DNA of 8,784 nucleotides from Candidatus Fermentibacterota bacterium (GTDB taxonomy: Bacteria; JAFGKV01), in NCBI GenBank assembly GCA_016928395.1, contig JAFGKV010000081.1, positions 1 to 8,784 on the forward strand, written 5' to 3'. Every line of letters starts with the position of its first letter. Position 1 is the first letter of the stretch. Of this stretch, positions 1 through 8,784 are shown piece by piece. A model generated the notes under the pieces. That model searched no databases and was not told the DNA's origin. It saw only the letters and a list, made by a program, of their open reading frames with translations. The position numbers and the translations under genes were made by a program.

Positions 1-810
1 GCCTACGTGCCCGGGGCGCACCGCTACTTCACGATCAGAGACCCGAAGGAACGCGAGATCGCCGTGGCGCCGTTTCGGGACCGCGTGGTTCACCACGCCG
101 TGGTGGCGACCATCGAACCGTGGTTCGAGCGGGCCTTCATCAGCGATTCGTACGCATGCCGGAAGGGCAAGGGCGTGCACGCGGCGATACGGCGCGCGCA
201 GGTGTTCCTCCGGCGGCATCGCTGGTATGTGAAGACGGATGTCGAGAAGTACTTCGAGCGTGTCGATCATGAGGCGCTTCTGGGTATCCTGCGGCGGAAG
301 CTCAAGGATCGTCGGATTCTCGGGCTGCTGGAGACCATCATTCGGAACACGCGGGAGCCCGGCCGCGGGCTTCCCATCGGCAACCTGACGAGCCAGTTTC
401 TCGCCAATGTCTACCTTGACCCGCTGGATCACTTCATCAAGGAACGACTTCGGATCCGCGCCTATGTCCGCTACATGGACGACCTCGTCGTCTTCGACGA
501 CGATCCCGCCCGCCTCGAAAGCCTGGTGAGGGAGATCGAGGGGTTTCTCCACGGCGAACTCCGGCTTTCCTTGAAGCCCGGCTCGACATGGCGGAACACG
601 CGCGCACACGGGCTGAGCTTCCTGGGAGTGAGGGTCTTTCCCGGCCTGCTGCGGGTTCGCGGCGAGAACCGGCGGCGGTGTCTTCGCAGGATGCGGAATG
701 TGGTTGGAGCATGGCGAACGGGAGATCTGAGCGAGGAAGCAATGGAGCAGAGCCTCTGCAGCTCGGCGGGTCATCTGCGGTATTTCGATCGGCGGGCTGT
801 GGTGGCATGA
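1..810 (+). CDS. DGR-type reverse transcriptase, 5' end outside window
   Basis: RNA-directed DNA polymerase of a diversity-generating retroelement. It would copy the template-repeat RNA into adenine-mutagenised cDNA that replaces a variable region. The frame is open to the left edge, so about 70-80 N-terminal residues are probably missing. The GTG at 7 is not the true start. Numbering from that GTG, I see FTIRDPKEREI (8-18), APFRDRVVHHAV (21-32), the first catalytic Asp in KTDVEKYF (D78), the motif-4 block GLPIGNLTSQFLANVYL (121-137), the YMDD catalytic box (156-159), LKPGSTW (189-195) and GLSFLGVRVFP (202-212). The IGNLTSQ form of motif 4, rather than QGxxxSP, separates DGR enzymes from group II intron maturases. 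No maturase or HNH domain follows. The C-terminus is short and basic and looks intact. The TR begins about 55 bp downstream, which supports the assignment independently. Confidence 0.93.
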   Translation, partial: AYVPGAHRYFTIRDPKEREIAVAPFRDRVVHHAVVATIEPWFERAFISDSYACRKGKGVHAAIRRAQVFLRRHRWYVKTDVEKYFERVDHEALLGILRRKLKDRRILGLLETIIRNTREPGRGLPIGNLTSQFLANVYLDPLDHFIKERLRIRAYVRYMDDLVVFDDDPARLESLVREIEGFLHGELRLSLKPGSTWRNTRAHGLSFLGVRVFPGLLRVRGENRRRCLRRMRNVVGAWRTGDLSEEAMEQSLCSSAGHLRYFDRRAVVA

Positions 811-850
811 GCGCCGCGTGCGGCCGTTGCGATGAAGTCGTACTGATCGG

Positions 851-868
851 TCCAGGGGCATTCCTGGA
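851..868 (+). other. Small hairpin at the 5' edge of the TR
   Basis: TCCAGG (851-856) and CCTGGA (863-868) form a perfect 6-bp stem with a 6-nt loop, between the reverse transcriptase stop and the TR. It may be part of the folded TR RNA. The stem is short and could occur by chance. Confidence 0.35.
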
Positions 869-996
869 GGGACGGGTCGAACCGGGTGAAACGCGGCGGC
901 AGCTGGAACAACAACGCGCAGAACTGCCGCTCCGCGAACCGCAACAACAACTCGCCCGGCAACAGCAACAACAACATCGGCTTCCGTCTCGTTCGC
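865..996 (+). repeat. DGR template repeat (TR), formylglycine-generating-enzyme/C-type-lectin type
   Basis: This is read as the non-coding template copied by the adjacent reverse transcriptase. In one frame it spells WRDGSNRVKRGGSW, then AAC-rich codons, then IGFRLV, which is the usual C-terminal signature of SUMF1/FGE-type DGR target proteins. Codons 907-975 include 12 AAC codons (907, 910, 913, 922, 937, 943, 946, 949, 961, 967, 970, 973), and only two adenines in that stretch fall outside AAC. Adenine mutagenesis of AAC can give many residues but no stop codon, the known DGR design. The stretch 977-997 has no adenine on this strand and would suit a 3' initiation (IMH*-like) segment. The frame closes upstream with TGA at 844-846 and lacks a start or ribosome binding site, so it is not a gene. 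The ends are approximate because no variable-region copy is present to align. Confidence 0.9.
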
Positions 997-1016
997 GAGC
1001 ACGGGCATCAGCAGAG

Positions 1017-1078
1017 CCGCGGCCTTCACGGAGGCCGCGGGAGTCCGGCGCCCGTTCAGCCTCCGGTACCGGCGCCGG
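1017..1078 (+). other. Two tandem GC-rich hairpins downstream of the TR
   Basis: Hairpin 1 is CCGCGGCCT (1017-1025) paired with AGGCCGCGG (1032-1040), a perfect 9-bp stem with a 6-nt loop. Hairpin 2 is CCGGCGCC (1045-1052) paired with GGCGCCGG (1071-1078), 8 bp, and a further perfect palindrome CCGGTACCGG (1063-1072) overlaps it. They begin about 20 bp after the end of the TR frame. DGR template RNAs are known to need structured flanks, and hairpins also occur next to variable regions, so a role in the DGR RNA is plausible. They could instead act as the transcription end of the RT-TR unit, although there is no T run. Confidence 0.5.
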
Positions 1079-1191
1079 GGTCTCCCGGTCGAACAGGATC
1101 GTCTCCCCTGCTTCGGTAGGCCGCTGGGTCGAAGGCGCGGGGGAGGCGGGGCGTGCCCCCAGGTCGGAGTCGTCGGCGGGGGCCTTCGGCT

Positions 1192-1246
1192 TCCCCCTCT
1201 GCTAAGGGGGACCGAGGGGTCGTTGACCCTGAGCGGAGTCGAGGGG
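1192..1246. repeat. Pair of small palindromic intergenic elements
   Basis: TCCCCCT (1192-1198) pairs with AGGGGGA (1205-1211) around a 6-nt loop. It is followed at 1228-1245 by CCCTGAGCGGAGTCGAGGGG-like sequence, whose ends CCCT and AGGG are inverted. Both resemble short dispersed intergenic repeats I recognise from many bacterial genomes. The copy number in this genome cannot be seen here. Confidence 0.45.
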
Positions 1247-1280
1247 AATTTCGAAAATGGATCCCCGCTGCATTGGGGAA

Positions 1281-1316
1281 AGGGATGTAGGTTGGGCGAG
1301 CGAATGCGTACCCCAG
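1281..1316. repeat. GTAGGTTGGG-type imperfect inverted repeat, copy 1
   Basis: ATGTAGGTTGGG, then CGAGCGAATGCGTA, then CCCC: a head and tail of opposite sense around a GCG-rich centre. A related element occurs at 8591-8625 (GGGATGTAGGTTGG, then GCGTAACCCCC). Both resemble the widespread GTAGGTTGGG...GCGTAACCCAAC intergenic repeat. Confidence 0.5.
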
Positions 1317-1331
1317 CAGGGGGTCTGACTG

Positions 1332-1359
1332 CTGTGAGCTGCGAACTGTGAACTGCGAG
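1332..1359. repeat. Four tandem copies of a 7-bp unit (CTGYGAR)
   Basis: CTGTGAG, CTGCGAA, CTGTGAA, CTGCGAG lie directly end to end. All four fit CTGYGAR and vary only by transitions at positions 4 and 7. The following GCGAGCGAAGCGAGC continues a similar flavour out of register. No coding role is seen. Confidence 0.7.
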
Positions 1360-1400
1360 CGAAGCGAGCCGAAATCCCTGCCGGCCTCCCACATTGGGAT

Positions 1401-1440
1401 GGAAGACTGGAAGGCTGGAATGATGGATGGGTGGGAGACG
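1401..1440. repeat. Degenerate 8-bp tandem repeat, purine-rich
   Basis: Five consecutive octamers begin with GG: GGAAGACT, GGAAGGCT, GGAATGAT, GGATGGGT, GGGAGACG. The period is clear in the first three units and decays after that. Function unknown; it may simply be relic tandem duplication. Confidence 0.45.
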
Positions 1441-1462
1441 AGGGGTTGTGCCTGCGGTGGAT

Positions 1463-1486
1463 TGTAGGAGCGTCGTAAGGCGCGAA
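1463..1486 (+). repeat. REP-like element with GTAG head and GNRA-loop hairpin (single)
   Basis: TGTAGGAGCG leads into the hairpin GCGTC-GTAA-GGCGC (one T-G wobble), then GAA. The 27 bp at 1460-1486 are identical to 8758-8784 at the right edge of the window. A GTAG tetranucleotide 5' of a small palindrome is the mark of REP elements mobilised by REP-associated tyrosine transposases (RAYT). No RAYT gene lies in the window. Confidence 0.75.
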
Positions 1487-1497
1487 GGGGTGGGGCT

Positions 1498-1528
1498 TCT
1501 GGTTCCGATGCTCCGCGTCGGAACCAGA
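1498..1528. repeat. Perfect 11-bp inverted repeat
   Basis: TCTGGTTCCGA (1498-1508) pairs with TCGGAACCAGA (1518-1528) around the loop TGCTCCGCG. It looks like the dispersed GGTTCCGATGCTCCGCG-type intergenic element. It is followed by a shorter hairpin, GGCGC-GGA-GCGCC (1553-1565). Confidence 0.7.
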
Positions 1529-1573
1529 GTGCCCCGCTCTGCGGTGGCGAGGGGCGCGGAGCGCCAGCCGATG

Positions 1574-1598
1574 CGCTCCCACGGGGACCATGGGAGCG
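1574..1598. repeat. Perfect 8-bp inverted repeat
   Basis: CGCTCCCA (1574-1581) pairs with TGGGAGCG (1591-1598) around a 9-nt loop. It resembles the common CGTTCCCACG...CGTGGGAACG intergenic family and sits about 45 bp from the preceding 11-bp palindrome, so the two may form one composite element. Confidence 0.6.
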
Positions 1599-1629
1599 AG
1601 GAACAATGGGGAATGCGGTGCACAGACGC

Positions 1630-1687
1630 TGTAGGAGCGCCGAAAGGCGCGGTGCGCGGTATGCTCGCGGCTTACGCCGCTCCTACA
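1630..1687. repeat. REP-like doublet (inverted pair)
   Basis: The head TGTAGGAGCG (1630-1639) and tail CGCTCCTACA (1678-1687) are exact inverted repeats. Each half carries its own hairpin: GCGCC-GAAA-GGCGC in the head and, read on the - strand, GCGGC-GTAA-GCCGC in the tail. This is the inverted-pair layout of bacterial BIME/REPIN elements. Stem bases differ between halves but pairing is kept. Confidence 0.75.
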
Positions 1688-1812
1688 ATGGGGGAATGCC
1701 CCATGAGGGCTTGTCAGGGGGTGGGGGAGAGGAGAGATTGAGGGGAGCGATCTGACAGAGAAGAATAGCAGATAGCCGAGGGTCGGAGCGGCCAGGACCA
1801 GTGGGAGGCATC

Positions 1813-1953
1813 ATGGGAACAAGAGGGAGGAAGGGATCGAAAGCTAAGGGCGAGGTTCTGGATTATCGGTTTGAGAATGTCACGAGGGTGAACATACCGC
1901 CCGCGGGGTTGGCGGCGAGGGGGACGATCGTCAGAGAGAAGAAGCTAGCCTAG
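1813..1953 (+). pseudogene. mod: N-terminal segment of mod, separated by a frameshift
   Basis: A 46-codon frame from ATG 1813 to TAG 1951-1953, with ribosome binding site GGGAGG at 1803-1808 and a 4-nt gap. The peptide has a basic start (MGTRGRKGSKAKG) then VLDYRFENVTRVNIPPAGLAARG. From memory of the family, a VLxYRxExxxRxNxPPAGL block followed by a YAYDPHLPPVLRFD-like block forms the extreme N-terminus of this Type III-like methyltransferase. The second block (AHNPHLSPTLRFDVTGRADK) is present immediately downstream, but in another frame (1953-2012). The two therefore look like one gene split by a shift at about 1945-1955. Removing one CTAGC unit (5 nt) or adding one base would give a continuous protein of 1084-1086 residues. 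It could be a true mutation, a switchable state or an assembly error. An independent 46-residue protein is less likely. Confidence 0.7.
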
Positions 1954-1955
1954 CC
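1945..1955 (+). repeat. 5-bp tandem duplication at the mod frameshift
   Basis: CTAGC is repeated directly (1945-1949 and 1950-1954), and the period-5 match runs on to 1955. With two units the upstream frame ends at TAG 1951-1953. With one unit it reads AAG CTA GCC CAC AAT straight into the mod frame. The tract is short for a hypermutable repeat, but its position and size fit the split exactly. Confidence 0.6.
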
Positions 1956-2021
1956 CACAATCCGCATCTGTCACCGACGCTGCGGTTTGACGTTACGGGC
2001 AGGGCCGACAAGATTGCCGAG

Positions 2022-5000
2022 TTGGTCGAGGCGGCAGGCGAGCGACGGCTCGAGCCCGACGAGCTGAAGATCCTCCAGGAAGCCCTCCGCAATCACGAGC
2101 CATGGTTGGAATGGTCTGGGAAGCGGGAACAGCAGTGGTGCGTAGCTGATCCGGTTGCGCTTCACATCCACGAGCGCGTTTCAACGCAAGCGATTCTGAG
2201 AGTTGCGAAGCGGGAGGACGTGCAGCGCGACCTGTTCGCCGATCCCGAGATGGAGTATCGCCAGGCGGTTCAGTTCTACAAGTGGCCGATGGACTGGACG
2301 AACCGAATGATCCTGGGCGACTCGCTGGCTGTGATGGCATCCCTCGCCCGGCGCGAGGGACTGGCCGGCAAGGTCCAGATGATCTACATGGACCCGCCCT
2401 ACGGCATCAAGTACGCCAGCAACTTCCAGCCCGAAGTCGGCCGCCGCGACGTGAAGGACAAGGACGAAGACCTCACCCGCGAACCAGAGATGGTCAAGGC
2501 CTACCGCGACACCTGGACGCTTGGCGTCCACTCCTACCTGTCCTACCTCCGGGATCGGCTGTTGCTATGCAAGGAACTCCTGGCGGACACGGGAAGCATC
2601 TTCGTGCAGATCAGCGACGAGAACTTTCATAGAGTGCGGGTTCTCATGGATGAAGTGTTCCGGGCGGAGAACTTCATATCGGTCATTGGCTTTCGGAAGA
2701 CGAGTAATCTGACTGCTGAGTTTCTGCCGACCTCATGCGACTTCCTGTTGTGGTATTCCAGAGACCGAGCCAAGGCTAAGTACCGCCAGCTATTCGTAGA
2801 GAAGAGCTTCTCCAACGTATCGACGGACAGTTATGGCTGTTTCGAGACTTCTGAGGGCTTCTGGCGAAGGCTCTCTGGCCCCGAGAAGGAAGCGCCGAGC
2901 CTCTTGGCTGGGCGGAACCGCCTGTTCGGGTTGGGCGATCTCACATCATCTCACTACTACGCCAGCCCTTCCTTCGAGTACGAAGGCAGGGAGTTCACTC
3001 CGAAGAGTCGCTATTGGTCGACGTCAGCTGGTGGCCTGGCGAGGGTCAGTGGAGCTGGCCGCATTGCCGCAGTGGGGGACACTCTGAGGTACAAGCGCTT
3101 CTTTGATGACTTCCCAGTGATGGTTCTCAATAGCCAATGGGATGACACTGGGACCGGCACTCAGACGGAGGAGCGGGGATACGTAGTCCAGACCGCCACG
3201 AAGGTAGTAGCTCGTTGTCTTCTGATGACCACGGACCCCGGTGATCTCGTCCTCGACCCAACCTGCGGATCGGGCACGACAGCGTACGTTGCGGAGAACT
3301 GGGGGAGGCGGTGGATCACGATTGATTGCAGTAGGGTGGCGTTGGCGATTGCGAGGCAGCGGCTACTGACGGCGAAGTATGACTACTATCAGCTCAGGCC
3401 GACGAGCGCGGAGGACGTGCAGCGGAATCCCGGAGGTCCGTGGCTGAGCGATCCGGAGGGGAAGATCCAGGGGACGTGCACGTTCGACTGCAAGACCGTG
3501 CCGCACGTCACGCTCAAGAGCATCGCCCAGAACCAGGCGCTTGATCCGATCTTCGAGAAGTGGGAGCCGGTGTTGAGCAAGCGTCTGGTGGCATTGAACG
3601 ATGCACTGGCAGAGACGGTCACCGATGAGATACGGCAACGGCTGAAGATGAAGATCATCGAGAAGGAGAAGCGGGAGGGGAAGAAGGCGGTGACGGATGC
3701 GGACCGGAGGAGGTGGGTGCTGCCGGAGGTAGACGCGGCGTCTCGCCGCGTTTTGGGAAGCGGCGGGGACGCCGCTTCTACTGCGATTGAGATAGCGGGT
3801 GAGGCGAGTGGTTGGCGGGAGTGGGAGGTGCCGTTCGACACGGATCCGGATTGGCCAAGGGAGCTGCAGGAGGCGCTGACTGAGTACCGGAAGGCGTGGC
3901 GGGGGAAGATGGACGAGGTCAACGCCTGCATCGCGGCACGGGCCGATCAGGAAGAGTTGGTCGACCAGCCGTCTGTGGACCGGAGCAAGGTGCGCGTCTC
4001 GGGGCCGTTCACGGTCGAAGGTGTGATACCCGAGGAGGAGAGCATCGAGGAGGATCAAAGCCCTCACCCCCACCCTCTCCCAGAAGGAGAGGGGGATGTC
4101 TTTGTCGGTGCGCGCCCTCACCCCGACCCTCTCCCAGAAGGAGAGGGAGTGACACCCATCGGTGGGGCGCCGGAGGAGCTGGAGACGTTCGAGGGCTCGG
4201 AGCTCGATGCGTCAGCAGCCGAGGGCCGCGAAGAATCGCTGAGGTCTGTCCGGACGGATGCGCGGAATGCCGATGCGTACCTTGACCGGATGATTCGGCT
4301 TCTGCGTGAGGACGGGGTGCGGTTCCCGGACAACAAGGTCGTCAAGTTCGGCACGCTGGAAGCGCTGGCCGATGGATCGATCCTGCATGCCGTGGGAACA
4401 TGGGGAGAAGGCGCCGAAGAGCGGCGCGCGGCGGTGATGTTCGGGCCGCAGTACGGCGCGCTGGTGACCACTATGGTCGAGGATGGGATTCGGACTGCCA
4501 GCCGGCGAGGGTACGACGATCTCGTGTTCGCGGCGTTCAGCTTCGACAGTGCGGCGCAGGCAACGATTCAGGATGATCCCGATCCCCGCGTCCGCATCCA
4601 CATGGCCCAGATCAGGCCGGATGTGACGATGGGAGATCTGCTCAAGACGACCGTGTCCAGCCAGATCTTCACCGTGTCCGGCATGCCGCGCACTGAGATC
4701 AAACCCGCGGATGACGGGCAGTTCGTGGTCGAGATGCAAGGCGTAGACATCTACGATCCGGTAACGAACACCGTGCGGTCCACAGGCGCGGAGAAGGTCG
4801 CCGCCTGGTTCCTGGACACCGACTACGATGGCCGCTGCTTCTGCATCACGCAGGCGTTCTTCCCGGACAGGTCCTCATGGGACAAGCTGAGTCGGGCGCT
4901 GAAGGGCACGCTGGACCCCGAGGCGTTCGACAAGCTCTCGGGCACGGTGTCGCTCCCGTTCCCGGCGGGGCAGCACCGACGCGTGGCGGTGAAGGTCATC

Positions 5001-5072
5001 GATCCCCGCGGCAACGAAGTCGTCCGCATCCATCGGCTGGGGGCAATCGACTATCGAGAGGTGGAGTCATGA
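2022..5072 (+). CDS. mod: Type III-like DNA methyltransferase (Mod), N-terminus frameshifted
   Basis: DNA methyltransferase of an R-M pair, expected to make N6-methyladenine with S-adenosylmethionine. From TTG 2022 it has 1016 residues. MILGDSL is at 96-102, the catalytic motif IV DPPYGIKYASNF at 124-135 and the cofactor-binding motif I LDPTCGSGTT at 411-420. The order IV before I is the beta class typical of Type III Mod. The target-recognition part is about 220-395. A long family-specific C-terminal part ends with ALKGTLDPEAFDKLSG and PAGQHRRVAVKVIDPRGNE. TTG 2022 is a weak start without a ribosome binding site. The same frame carries conserved sequence back to about 1953 with no usable start, so the real start is probably ATG 1813 across a frameshift. 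In-frame palindromic repeats encode residues 570-587 and 681-709. The stop overlaps the next gene's ATG. The whole methylase core is intact, but translation may be impaired in this sequence state. Confidence 0.9.
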   Translation: MVEAAGERRLEPDELKILQEALRNHEPWLEWSGKREQQWCVADPVALHIHERVSTQAILRVAKREDVQRDLFADPEMEYRQAVQFYKWPMDWTNRMILGDSLAVMASLARREGLAGKVQMIYMDPPYGIKYASNFQPEVGRRDVKDKDEDLTREPEMVKAYRDTWTLGVHSYLSYLRDRLLLCKELLADTGSIFVQISDENFHRVRVLMDEVFRAENFISVIGFRKTSNLTAEFLPTSCDFLLWYSRDRAKAKYRQLFVEKSFSNVSTDSYGCFETSEGFWRRLSGPEKEAPSLLAGRNRLFGLGDLTSSHYYASPSFEYEGREFTPKSRYWSTSAGGLARVSGAGRIAAVGDTLRYKRFFDDFPVMVLNSQWDDTGTGTQTEERGYVVQTATKVVARCLLMTTDPGDLVLDPTCGSGTTAYVAENWGRRWITIDCSRVALAIARQRLLTAKYDYYQLRPTSAEDVQRNPGGPWLSDPEGKIQGTCTFDCKTVPHVTLKSIAQNQALDPIFEKWEPVLSKRLVALNDALAETVTDEIRQRLKMKIIEKEKREGKKAVTDADRRRWVLPEVDAASRRVLGSGGDAASTAIEIAGEASGWREWEVPFDTDPDWPRELQEALTEYRKAWRGKMDEVNACIAARADQEELVDQPSVDRSKVRVSGPFTVEGVIPEEESIEEDQSPHPHPLPEGEGDVFVGARPHPDPLPEGEGVTPIGGAPEELETFEGSELDASAAEGREESLRSVRTDARNADAYLDRMIRLLREDGVRFPDNKVVKFGTLEALADGSILHAVGTWGEGAEERRAAVMFGPQYGALVTTMVEDGIRTASRRGYDDLVFAAFSFDSAAQATIQDDPDPRVRIHMAQIRPDVTMGDLLKTTVSSQIFTVSGMPRTEIKPADDGQFVVEMQGVDIYDPVTNTVRSTGAEKVAAWFLDTDYDGRCFCITQAFFPDRSSWDKLSRALKGTLDPEAFDKLSGTVSLPFPAGQHRRVAVKVIDPRGNEVVRIHRLGAIDYREVES
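3729..3781. repeat. REP-like doublet inserted in frame in mod
   Basis: GTAGA (3729-3733) and TCTAC (3777-3781) are inverted ends. Inside are two hairpins: CGCGGCG-TCT-CGCCGCG (3734-3750) and AAGCGGCG-GGGA-CGCCGCTT (3758-3777). The layout, a GTAG head plus two palindromes, matches the intergenic doublets in this window, but the stems belong to another family. It encodes VDAASRRVLGSGGDAAST without breaking the frame, in a linker after the methylase core. Confidence 0.7.
4061..4147. repeat. Two copies of a CCCTCACCCC hairpin repeat inside mod
   Basis: Copies at 4061-4093 and 4115-4147 agree at 32 of 33 bases. Each contains the perfect stem CCCTCTCC/GGAGAGGG with a CAGAA loop. The 54-bp spacing is 18 codons, so both are read in the same frame as PHPHPLPEGEG and PHPDPLPEGEG. 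This is the well-known dispersed CCCTCACCCC(N)ACCCTCTCCC intergenic repeat, here within a coding region between the methylase core and the conserved C-terminal domain. Confidence 0.8.
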
Positions 5073-5290
5073 ACGAATACGTGGTTGTCAATCCCGAGGT
5101 GTGCGCAGGCAAGCCCGTGCTCCGGGGCACGCGGATCATGGTCAGGAACATCCTCGGCATGGTCGCGGGCGGCTACACGGTCGACCGCATCCTTGAGGCA
5201 TATCCCGAGCTGACCAAAGCCATGGTCCAGGCTGCCCTCGAGTACGCCGCGACAGTCGTCGACGAGGAGCAGGTTGTCGCCTGTGCCTGA
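5069..5290 (+). CDS. DUF433 family protein (antitoxin-like)
   Basis: A small 73-residue protein. The motif NPEVCAGKPVLRGTRIMV (8-25) followed by GGYTVDRILEAYPELT (34-49) and a helical ALEYAATVV segment is the DUF433 signature. The family is a helix-turn-helix-like fold often placed as antitoxin next to a PIN-like (DUF5615) toxin. The ATG at 5069 overlaps the mod stop as ATGA, so it is probably translationally coupled. A purine-rich GAGAGG at 5056-5061 can serve as ribosome binding site. I see no complete DUF5615 partner; only a 26-codon frame lies before res. Possible roles are regulation of the R-M operon or leftover antitoxin. Family assignment is firm, role is not. Confidence 0.9.
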   Translation: MNEYVVVNPEVCAGKPVLRGTRIMVRNILGMVAGGYTVDRILEAYPELTKAMVQAALEYAATVVDEEQVVACA

Positions 5291-5363
5291 AGGTGGCCTG
5301 CGAATGCTCGCATCAGAACTGCCCGAGATCGGTCATCCTGTGAATCGAGCAGGGGGAGACTAG
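5283..5363 (+). CDS. Possible micro-ORF or toxin remnant between DUF433 gene and res
   Basis: GTG 5283 overlaps the end of the DUF433 gene, and TAG 5361-5363 lies 2 nt before the res ATG. The 26-residue product (VPEGGLRMLASELPEIGHPV...) is too short to classify. Its tight packing, and the position where a DUF5615 toxin gene is often found, suggest either an internally deleted toxin remnant or a coupling leader. The LRMLA...GHPV spacing only faintly recalls the start of DUF5615 proteins. It may be chance. Confidence 0.2.
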   Translation: MPEGGLRMLASELPEIGHPVNRAGGD

Positions 5364-5365
5364 CC

Positions 5366-8300
5366 ATGCAGCACGAACCTGTGCTCGTTCAGCCAGTCGA
5401 GAGCCCGGTCATCTGCAAACCATACTACGAGCCGACGTGCTACTGGGACTATGACAGGGAAACCGGGCAGGCTGCCATGAAGTCAGGACGACGGCCCGCG
5501 GCATACTGGTACAAGCTTCCTGAGGCGGACCTGCGACGTGGGCAGTTGACCTTCGAATTGGAGGAGGAACGTCGTGATCTGATCTACGTGAACAAGATCA
5601 GAGCCGACGTGAAGCGGTGGCGGGAGTCAAAGTGGGAAGGCGCCTCGAACGTGACCAAGGATCTGCTCCGCCACTGGACGCGGAAGGGCCGGGCCAGGCG
5701 GCTCTTCTTCTGCCAGATTGAGGCCGCGGAGACCCTCATCTTCCTCAACGAGATCAGAGGACTGCGGCGGGATGGGAGCCGTGGCAAGCCCCGCTGGGCC
5801 CCGTCGTTCAATGACGAGGACTTCCAGGCGCTCTTCGACCAGCCGTTCGACGCCGAGTATCCGCCGATCCCGCGCATGGGCTGCAAGATGGCCACGGGGA
5901 GCGGCAAGACCGTGGTCATGGCGATGCTCATCGCCTGGGCCTTCTGCAACCGGGGGCGAGTGCCGAGCGACGAGCGTTTCCCTCGCGCCGTGCTGGTCTG
6001 CTGCCCCAACCTGACGATCAAGGAACGGCTGCAGGTGCTGCGGACCGATACATCCGGCGAGGACTACTTCACGCAGTTCGACATCGTGCCGAGCACCTAC
6101 CGGGACCTCCTGCGTGCGGGCAAGGTCATGGTCACGAACTGGCATTTCTTTGCGCCCGAGTCGGAGCACTGCGAGGGCGGGAAGAGTTACGGCGTGGTGC
6201 GCAAGGGCGAGGAGACAGACGAGGCATTCGCCCGGAATCGCCTCGGGGAACTCTACGACCTTGGCCCGCTGATGGTGCTCAACGACGAGGGGCATCATGC
6301 CTATCGCCCCGCGCCGCTTCCCGACCTGGAGGGCGAGGGCGCCGACGCGGAGGCGCGGAAGCAGCGGGAGGAAGCCACGATCTGGGTGCAGGGGCTCGAC
6401 CGCATCAACAATGCCTGCGGCATCAAGACCTGCGTGGACTTGTCGGCCACGCCGTTCTACATCAAGGGCAGCGGGTATCCAGAGGGAGAGCCGTTCCCCT
6501 GGATCGTGAGCGACTTCGGGCTCGTGGATGCCATCGAGAGCGGCATCACGAAGATCCCCAGGCTCCCGGTCAGCGACACGACGGGCCGCCCCGATCCCAA
6601 GTACTTCAGACTCTGGAAGAACATCACGGAGAACCTGGCGCCGGCGCAGCGGCTGTCGAATGGCCGCCCCAGGCCGGACGTCGTGTGGCAACGGGCCGAG
6701 GACGCGCTGGTGCAGCTTGCGGGTGAGTACAAGAAGGCCTTCGAGGCGATCCAGGCCGCAAGCGACACCGCACTCAAGGCGCCGCCGGTCATGATCGTCG
6801 TGTGTGACAACACAGGCATCGCCCAGGTCTTCTTCGAGAGTATCTCGGGGCAGCAGGAAGTTGAGGACATCGCCGCCGAGGAGGATGCCGAGGATGATGA
6901 AGGGCAAAGCGGCAAAGCGCCTCGTCAGAAGGCCAAGCGGCGCGTCACGTACGGCAGAGGCAAGGTCTTCCCGGAGCTGTTTCAGAACGAGAACGGCCGT
7001 CTTTTCACCATCCGGATCGACAGCAAGCAGCTTGAGAAGGTCGAGAGCGAGGACCCGAATGCGTCGAAAGACCAAGCGGCCCAGGAGCTCCGCGGAATCG
7101 TGAATACCGTCGGTAAGCCGGGGAAGTCCGGGCAGGATGTTCGCTGCGTCGTGTCGGTGGCCATGCTCACTGAGGGGTGGGATGCCAACAATGTCACCCA
7201 CATCCTGGGGCTGCGCGCATTCACCAGCCAGCTCCTCTGCGAACAGGTCGTGGGGCGCGGCCTTCGACGGATGAACTACACGCCGGATCCGGTGACTGAA
7301 CTGCTGCCCGAGGAGTTCGTCGACGTGTATGGCATCCCGTTCTCGGTCATCCCGTACAAGGGGAAGACTACGCGCACTCCGGTCGACCGGCCGGTAAACC
7401 ACGTGAAGGCACTGCCTGAGCGGGCGGGATACGAGATTCGTTTCCCCAACGTCGAAGGGTATGTCTACTCGCTGCAGAAGATGCGGGTCCGGGCGGATGT
7501 GGGCCGGATGGAACCGATGAGGATCGAACCAGAAGTCAAGCCGACGGCGACCTTCCTGCGCATCTCGGCCGGGTATGGCGAAGGGTATGCGGCCATGAGC
7601 GGGATCGGCGATTTCGTCGAGCACAACCGCGAGGAGTACTACGCGCACCACCATCTGCAGGAGATCGAGTTCGAGGTGGCGCGGTTGATCGTGGCGGATT
7701 TGGTAGGGGAGGGACCACATGCGCCGGTACGGGGCAGCGCACGGCTGCGCGGCGTGGCACGTCACCATCTCTTCCCGCAGGTGCTTCGGATCGTGAAGCG
7801 ATTCGTGCGGGACAAGGTCGATTTCCGCGGCGTGAACCCCTGCGAGTTGGGGTTGGCGGAGTATGTCCAGCGGATGCGGGAGCGCTTGCGGGACGCGATT
7901 GAGCCGGATACCGGCATGGGGGAGGCACCGCTGTTGCCGATCTTGAACCCCTACAAGCCGGTCGGCACCACGGCGGACGTGGATTTCACCACGACGCGCA
8001 ATGTGCACTCGGCGCAGCGTTCGCACGTCAACGCCATCGTGCTCGACAGCCAGTGGGAGCAGTGCGCCGCGTTCTACCTGGAGCGGCAGGCGAACTTGGT
8101 GGCGACATACGTTCGGAACGAGCGGCCGTTCCTGCTCATACCCTACGAGTTCGAGGGGGTTCAGCATCACTACGAGCCGGACTACCTGGTGCGGTTGATT
8201 GATGGAAACATGGTGATCCTGGAGATCAAGGGCGAGGAATCGGAGCAGGACCGCGCCAAGCACGAGGCGGCGCGGAGATGGATCTCCGCAATCAACAACT

Positions 8301-8386
8301 GGGGCCGGTTGAGCCGCTGGGAGTTCGCAGTATGCCGCGACCCGCAGCGGATAACGGAGGTTCTGCGGGGGCTTGCGAGGGCGTAG
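5366..8386 (+). CDS. res: Type III-like restriction endonuclease subunit (Res), BPTD_3080-like
   Basis: Restriction subunit of 1006 residues combining a superfamily 2 helicase/translocase with a nuclease. It would hydrolyse ATP to move along DNA and cut unmethylated targets together with Mod. Visible helicase motifs are Walker A ATGSGKT (176-182), motif II DEGHH (307-311), motif III SATP (360-363), TEGWDANNVTH (602-612) and motif VI QVVGRGLRR (627-635). The C-terminal PD-(D/E)xK nuclease shows EPDYLVRL (937-944) and LEIKGEE (952-958), with catalytic D939, E953 and K955 as candidates. The N-terminus (EPTCYWDYDRETG, then GRRPAAYWYKLP) fits the roughly 1000-residue Res group often labelled BPTD_3080. 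An acidic then basic insert lies at 499-533. Ribosome binding site GGGGGAG (5352-5358) sits 7 nt before ATG 5366. No key residue appears lost. Confidence 0.93.
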   Translation: MQHEPVLVQPVESPVICKPYYEPTCYWDYDRETGQAAMKSGRRPAAYWYKLPEADLRRGQLTFELEEERRDLIYVNKIRADVKRWRESKWEGASNVTKDLLRHWTRKGRARRLFFCQIEAAETLIFLNEIRGLRRDGSRGKPRWAPSFNDEDFQALFDQPFDAEYPPIPRMGCKMATGSGKTVVMAMLIAWAFCNRGRVPSDERFPRAVLVCCPNLTIKERLQVLRTDTSGEDYFTQFDIVPSTYRDLLRAGKVMVTNWHFFAPESEHCEGGKSYGVVRKGEETDEAFARNRLGELYDLGPLMVLNDEGHHAYRPAPLPDLEGEGADAEARKQREEATIWVQGLDRINNACGIKTCVDLSATPFYIKGSGYPEGEPFPWIVSDFGLVDAIESGITKIPRLPVSDTTGRPDPKYFRLWKNITENLAPAQRLSNGRPRPDVVWQRAEDALVQLAGEYKKAFEAIQAASDTALKAPPVMIVVCDNTGIAQVFFESISGQQEVEDIAAEEDAEDDEGQSGKAPRQKAKRRVTYGRGKVFPELFQNENGRLFTIRIDSKQLEKVESEDPNASKDQAAQELRGIVNTVGKPGKSGQDVRCVVSVAMLTEGWDANNVTHILGLRAFTSQLLCEQVVGRGLRRMNYTPDPVTELLPEEFVDVYGIPFSVIPYKGKTTRTPVDRPVNHVKALPERAGYEIRFPNVEGYVYSLQKMRVRADVGRMEPMRIEPEVKPTATFLRISAGYGEGYAAMSGIGDFVEHNREEYYAHHHLQEIEFEVARLIVADLVGEGPHAPVRGSARLRGVARHHLFPQVLRIVKRFVRDKVDFRGVNPCELGLAEYVQRMRERLRDAIEPDTGMGEAPLLPILNPYKPVGTTADVDFTTTRNVHSAQRSHVNAIVLDSQWEQCAAFYLERQANLVATYVRNERPFLLIPYEFEGVQHHYEPDYLVRLIDGNMVILEIKGEESEQDRAKHEAARRWISAINNWGRLSRWEFAVCRDPQRITEVLRGLARA

Positions 8387-8629: not shown

Positions 8630-8690
8630 TGTAGGAGCGCTGTGAAGCGCGAACATTGCCGCCCTGGGGTCGCGGTTTACACCGCTCCAA
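8630..8690. repeat. REP-like doublet, second copy
   Basis: The head TGTAGGAGCG carries hairpin GCGCT-GTGA-AGCGC. The tail, read on the - strand, starts TTGGAGCG and carries GCGGT-GTAA-ACCGC. Same plan as 1630-1687, with different stem bases that still pair. A further small hairpin, GCCGC-TTC-GCGGC, follows at 8693-8705. Confidence 0.7.
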
Positions 8691-8757: not shown

Positions 8758-8784
8758 GATTGTAGGAGCGTCGTAAGGCGCGAA
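8758..8784 (+). repeat. REP-like element at right edge
   Basis: Identical over 27 bp to 1460-1486, with hairpin GCGTC-GTAA-GGCGC. The window ends inside or just after it, so a partner half may follow. Confidence 0.75.

Follow-up and report, generated by a model that had tools for sequence, protein, structure and literature searches.

In the diversity-generating retroelement (DGR) of Bordetella phage BPP-1 (mtd, avd, TR, brt), the template repeat (TR) precedes the reverse transcriptase (RT) gene, and the target is a phage tail protein. The RNA 3′ of this TR is needed for priming: the spacer recruits the RT-Avd complex and primes cDNA synthesis (PMC12875486). The DGR of Treponema denticola has lipoprotein targets, several of them remote, and an HRDC accessory gene that overlaps the RT gene; the sections of the source drawn on here describe HRDC as the accessory gene and do not mention Avd (PMC4891356). 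Plasmid pPAES01 of Prosthecochloris aestuarii (NC_011061, L134) carries an FGE target, HRDC, Avd and RT genes in that order, followed by an adenine-rich repeat; this element is annotated whole, and a restriction-endonuclease gene follows it.

The window, i.e., the whole analyzed stretch of 8,784 nucleotides from a Candidatus Fermentibacterota bacterium, makes up the whole of contig C111, in a genome of 4.79 Mb and 343 contigs. Its start is very probably the RT-TR end of a chromosomal DGR, an assessment that jointly covers the mechanism proposed below and the order of a cassette split by the assembly: FGE-fold target with the variable repeat (VR), inverted repeat, HRDC, Avd-like gene, RT, TR, and structured RNA tail. 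The gene order, the adenine-only TR/VR differences, the RT clade, and the covariation and DGR specificity of the tail are direct observations. The element is an ordinary member of a known DGR kind, because the same gene order is annotated on the Prosthecochloris plasmid. The two share the RNA tail and differ in that their RTs are just 46% identical and the Prosthecochloris element, located on a plasmid, has a second FGE gene after the TR. BPP-1 is alike in RT family, adenine-only TR/VR logic, IMH, and inverted repeat after the VR, but differs in the position of its TR and the nature of its target, and its annotated stretch contains no HRDC gene. With its two cassettes, the present DGR is a verified addition to a large known family. 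The features of the window are as follows.

1..810, + strand: DGR reverse transcriptase, C-terminal 269 codons (ORF, RVT_1, PDB match 8ub7, RT tree, IGNLTSQ and YMDD)
873..996, + strand: template repeat (15/15 differences from the C318 VR at TR adenines)
977..996, + strand: adenine-free 3′ end of the TR (TCGGCTTCCGTCTCGTTCGC), the same in the VR; putative IMH*/IMH position (TR/VR alignment; IMH role from BPP-1, PMC12875486)
997..1062, + strand: structured RNA directly 3′ of the TR (covariation, specificity of the R1 model; no Rfam match)
1001-1006 with 1050-1055, + strand: outer stem P1 (covariation)
1017-1026 with 1031-1040, + strand: P3, a 10-bp hairpin with the loop CACG (covariation)
1074..1089, + strand: possible second hairpin, then CGAACAGG (weaker; present in all three paralogous tails of the genome, outside the covariation test)
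1101..1147, + strand: stem P5 with an internal GGTAG...CGAA motif (cognate versus swapped arm energies)

The ORF at positions 1 to 810 encodes 269 aa with no stop within and has no start codon because the contig begins inside the gene. The first-pass annotation had called it a DGR-type RT from its IGNLTSQ and YMDD motifs, a call that would be contradicted by a grouping with retrons or group II introns, and the call is borne out. The ORF product matches Pfam RVT_1 (E 2e-18); in PDB, the top-scoring entry is 8ub7, a 328-aa protein (E 1.4e-41), with the best group II intron RT at 5e-23 and retron RTs far weaker. The PDB molecule name is just ‘Reverse transcriptase’; the translated brt of BPP-1 likewise has 328 aa, and we take 8ub7 to be the BPP-1 enzyme, bRT. 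In an RT tree of 28 rows, the window RT falls with those of BPP-1, a Vibrio phage, and TR/VR-verified DGRs, and five group II intron RTs stand apart with support of 100/99; retron RTs, absent from this tree, were compared by PDB score alone. The top-scoring NCBIfam model is a group II RT/maturase, as would be expected if this were a retron or group II intron RT that merely lies near an FGE fragment; its 125 bits, however, are far under the cut-off of 300. IGNLTSQ fits the DGR motif [ILV]GxxxSQ, with SQ where group II RTs (QGxxxSP) have SP. Among the 80 RTs from other genomes that are most closely related to this one, 66 are accompanied by a nearby TR/VR pair of 70 nt or more that has 9 or more A mismatches and no others; behind most of the remaining 14 RTs lies a TR-like adenine cassette. 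Such an origin is already contradicted by the tree and by the adenine-only TR/VR pairs described below, so that its probability is close to nil: group II identity is ruled out by the tree, and retron identity by the PDB ranking.

The TR starts 62 bases past the RT stop codon. As the first-pass annotation had proposed, an adenine-coded template cassette is present after the RT: translated in the frame that starts at 871, it gives DGSNRVKRGGSWNNNAQNCRSANRNNNSPGNSNNNIGFRLVR, which scores as an FGE domain end. Of the range given there for the TR, 865 to 996, the end stands and the start does not, homology to the VR beginning at ~873; a TR-specific tail begins after 996, where VR homology ends. A search of the genome with window positions 800-1060 matched four other places, and the suggested copy with mismatches at TR adenines was found on contig C318, where it forms the 3′ end of an FGE-fold ORF of 375 aa. 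Positions 874-996 of the TR contain 33 A in 123 bases; the C318 VR differs at 15 positions, all 15 of them TR adenines (hypergeometric p 1.5e-10), with eight changes from A to T, five to G, and two to C. Randomization of every TR adenine would vary ~19 codons and allow ~10^19.6 possible proteins; only one TR codon (AAA at 889) could turn into a stop. A second cognate pair, with the TR on C213 and the VR on C334, has 18/18 differences at A (p 4e-13). Crossed comparisons between the C318 and C334/C213 pairs also give non-A differences, and therefore each TR has its own target. Among the ten full-length FGE domains of the genome, compared with both TRs, adenine-only matches are found just on C318 and C334; C291, C341, and C28 are ruled out as targets of these two TRs by many non-A mismatches.

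The C318 target matches PF03781 over residues 129-374 of its 375 (E 1e-56), with the VR as its last codons, and has a lipoprotein-like N terminus, a hydrophobic segment followed by Cys. The C334 target is a 661-codon frame, also with an Ig-like match. Judged from these sequences, the DGR targets resemble lipoproteins whose FGE-fold tip is variable. The earlier proposal that the TR mutates a surface or signalling protein agrees with the adenine-only FGE-fold target on C318; the word ‘surface’ draws solely on the lipoprotein-like N terminus. Past the VR, C318 has a perfect 15-nt inverted repeat and C334 a 40-nt one (80%). Beyond its repeat, C318 encodes an HRDC protein (PF00570) and then MREDYPVFVHWYRLLDWILDTVERFPKS, the start of an Avd-like protein whose first codons alone precede the contig end. 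The FGE-like and Avd-like genes predicted to lie upstream of the RT are thus located on C318, with HRDC in addition; more than 10 of the RT loci contain both an HRDC and an Avd-like gene.

C318 runs into HRDC and the Avd-like start and stops there, and therefore C318 and the window are read as one DGR cut by the assembly, as are C334 and C213. The gene order on C334 is the same, with a complete bAvd-family gene (PF22296, E 7.5e-19) and an RT N terminus before the contig end, and C213 carries an RT C terminus and then the TR. The RT N terminus and most of the Avd-like gene of the window cassette fall in the assembly gap. The first base of contig C292 is the one that follows a TR, and the contig carries a third DGR tail, whose RT is missing from the bin; C292 is ruled out as the same locus as the window, since the tails diverge after 64 identical bases. 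An FGE gene at the edge of C291, with a VR-like end cognate to neither TR, may be the target of this third DGR.

Every RT piece in the bin is partial, including those on C334 and C213, the C292 tail lacks an RT, and the two nearest genomes examined, a genus relative (82% complete) and a family relative, did not yield this RT, so that the element is patchy and could be decaying. These facts would suit a decayed DGR with broken RT or accessory genes, whose adenine-only differences are a relic of earlier activity. However, the breaks fall at contig ends, the 269 codons in view form an open frame with intact catalytic motifs, both VR frames are open, and neither cognate pair has accumulated non-A TR/VR differences, as expected if homing was recent. 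We consider decay unlikely and retain the reading of a DGR split by the assembly.

The tail as a whole (window 997-1147), which the first-pass annotation had missed, shows strong covariation across phyla. Between the two TR tails of this genome, identity is 84% over 144 bases, against 64% for the RT DNA. Right behind the TR, tails from other phyla show the same layout, in which an outer stem is combined with a 10-bp hairpin that has a loop region of ~UUYAYGGA. In 11 aligned tails, 93% of cells pair, compared with 64% when shuffled, and 10 of the 13 pairs are compensated by changes on both sides; the covariation score is 0.87, versus 0.26 for shuffled and at most 0.26 for slid partners. P1/P3 begin exactly at the TR junction, and the loop bases are near-invariant. 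A hairpin followed by (G)CAAA, resembling positions 1074-1089, can be seen by eye in other tails.

A covariance model, R1, was built from the 11 aligned tails. Among 93 sources, it recovers TR tails, including one outside the seed (G053 C86, E 2e-4), and it matches the Prosthecochloris aestuarii tail with an E value of 7e-12. In a blind scan of 386 genomes, 5 were matched at E ≤ 1e-3, and only DGR TR tails were found; in the three of these that were new to the analysis, each match ends a TR or TR-like cassette beside a DGR RT. The model thus finds DGR templates in genomes without use of the RT sequence. Weak matches are seen on contig C207 (E 0.29) and in a Vibrio phage (E 0.014), the latter between TR and RT, which is the place of the BPP-1 spacer. 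BPP-1 differs here: its spacer is outside the reach of R1 and is not recognized by it. A search of Rfam 15 with the tail gave no convincing match, and no description of the tail was found in the open-access literature, which is weak evidence of absence. A test of pairing between cognate TR ends and tails is only suggestive (p 0.04 over 17 loci).

Further on, by ~100 bases, a stem interrupted by GTAG...CGAA is found in 41 of 59 tails (shuffled mean, 3.6/59). The P5-bearing tails include those of Bacteroidota and Verrucomicrobiota, which have a different first hairpin. The P5 arms pair at −18.0 kcal/mol with their own partner and at −8.8 kcal/mol with swapped ones (0/20000 permutations). The template RNA probably ends at P5, which resembles a terminator in relatives. 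A U-run follows P5 in 27/41 loci (background 23%) and is absent in the window. The terminator-like stem and the U-runs are what one would see if the whole tail were a mere transcription terminator with chance hairpins and no part in reverse transcription. Against this stand the start of P1/P3 at the TR junction with their strong covariation and near-invariant loop bases, the conserved internal GTAG...CGAA of P5, and the weaker R1 match between TR and RT in the Vibrio phage, a position that does not end an operon; a terminator with no other role appears improbable.

We read the tail as the likely equivalent, in RT-then-TR DGRs, of the cDNA-priming spacer of BPP-1. On balance, we lean toward the view that the ~150-nt RNA after the TR (P1/P3, second hairpin, and P5) represents a conserved, uncatalogued family of RT-then-TR DGRs in many phyla and might be a general handle on the template RNA that recruits the RT, primes the cDNA, and ends the transcript. 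In BPP-1, with its TR ahead of the RT, the RNA flanking the template is known to be decisive; covarying structure at this same position in DGRs of the opposite order offers testable stems and loops for template choice. It also allows DGR templates that lack a VR nearby to be annotated by sequence, such as the C292 tail without its RT.

By analogy with BPP-1, the source for binding, priming, mutagenic copying, homing, and current activity, the RT message would run on through the TR into the tail, and the RT and accessory proteins would bind the folded tail, which would position the TR 3′ end for priming. The cDNA would be copied with random bases opposite TR adenines and would then take the place of the VR in the C318 gene, with the adenine-free 3′ end common to TR and VR and the inverted repeat downstream of the VR as guides. 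HRDC may assist in strand opening, a role suggested for Treponema (PMC4891356).

A separate consensus, AGCTCA..GCCGGATGGCT..TGAACAG..CCTGTCCC(hairpin)GGGACAAAAA..AGTAG, is seen in tails of Bacteroidota and Verrucomicrobiota (L038-L110, e.g., L041 from 5345), and the BPP-1 spacer has a similar stretch, CCTGC(hairpin)GGCAAAACG. In genome G361, a NACHT-FGE protein is encoded just after the DGR tail (L131 5403-8519), and at the end of its frame the TR is matched over 87 nt with almost nothing but A mismatches (10, and at most one other; L131 8513-8599), possibly making a STAND NTPase a DGR target.

After the DGR, the window contains a type III-like restriction-modification pair (2022-8386). Its methyltransferase matches PADLOC MTase_III (E 1e-175), a DUF433 gene lies within the block at ~5069-5290, and a restriction endonuclease belongs to the BPTD_3080 family (NF046055, 927 bits, cut-off 800). 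All three DGR tails of this genome adjoin restriction-modification genes (type III-like, DUF1156-like methylase, and MmeI/type IIG), as do the elements on the P. aestuarii plasmid and in G221 (loci: window 997-2022, L009, L012, L134, and L129); other relatives do not. Restriction-modification genes are ruled out as a part of the DGR, the association not being general: elsewhere, the neighbors are gyrase, lipoate ligase, or an MFS transporter. A CCCTCACCCC.ACCCTCTCCCAGAAGGAGAGGG-type repeat occurs twice in the methyltransferase frame (window 4063-4150), where it is translated as SPHPHPLPEGEG...PHPDPLPEGEG; it is palindromic and apparently tolerated in a coding gene. Short REP-like copies (TGTAGGAGCGTCGTAAGGCGCGAA and variants) flank the restriction-modification block at ~1464-1489, 1630-1655, 8631-8656, and 8761-8784.
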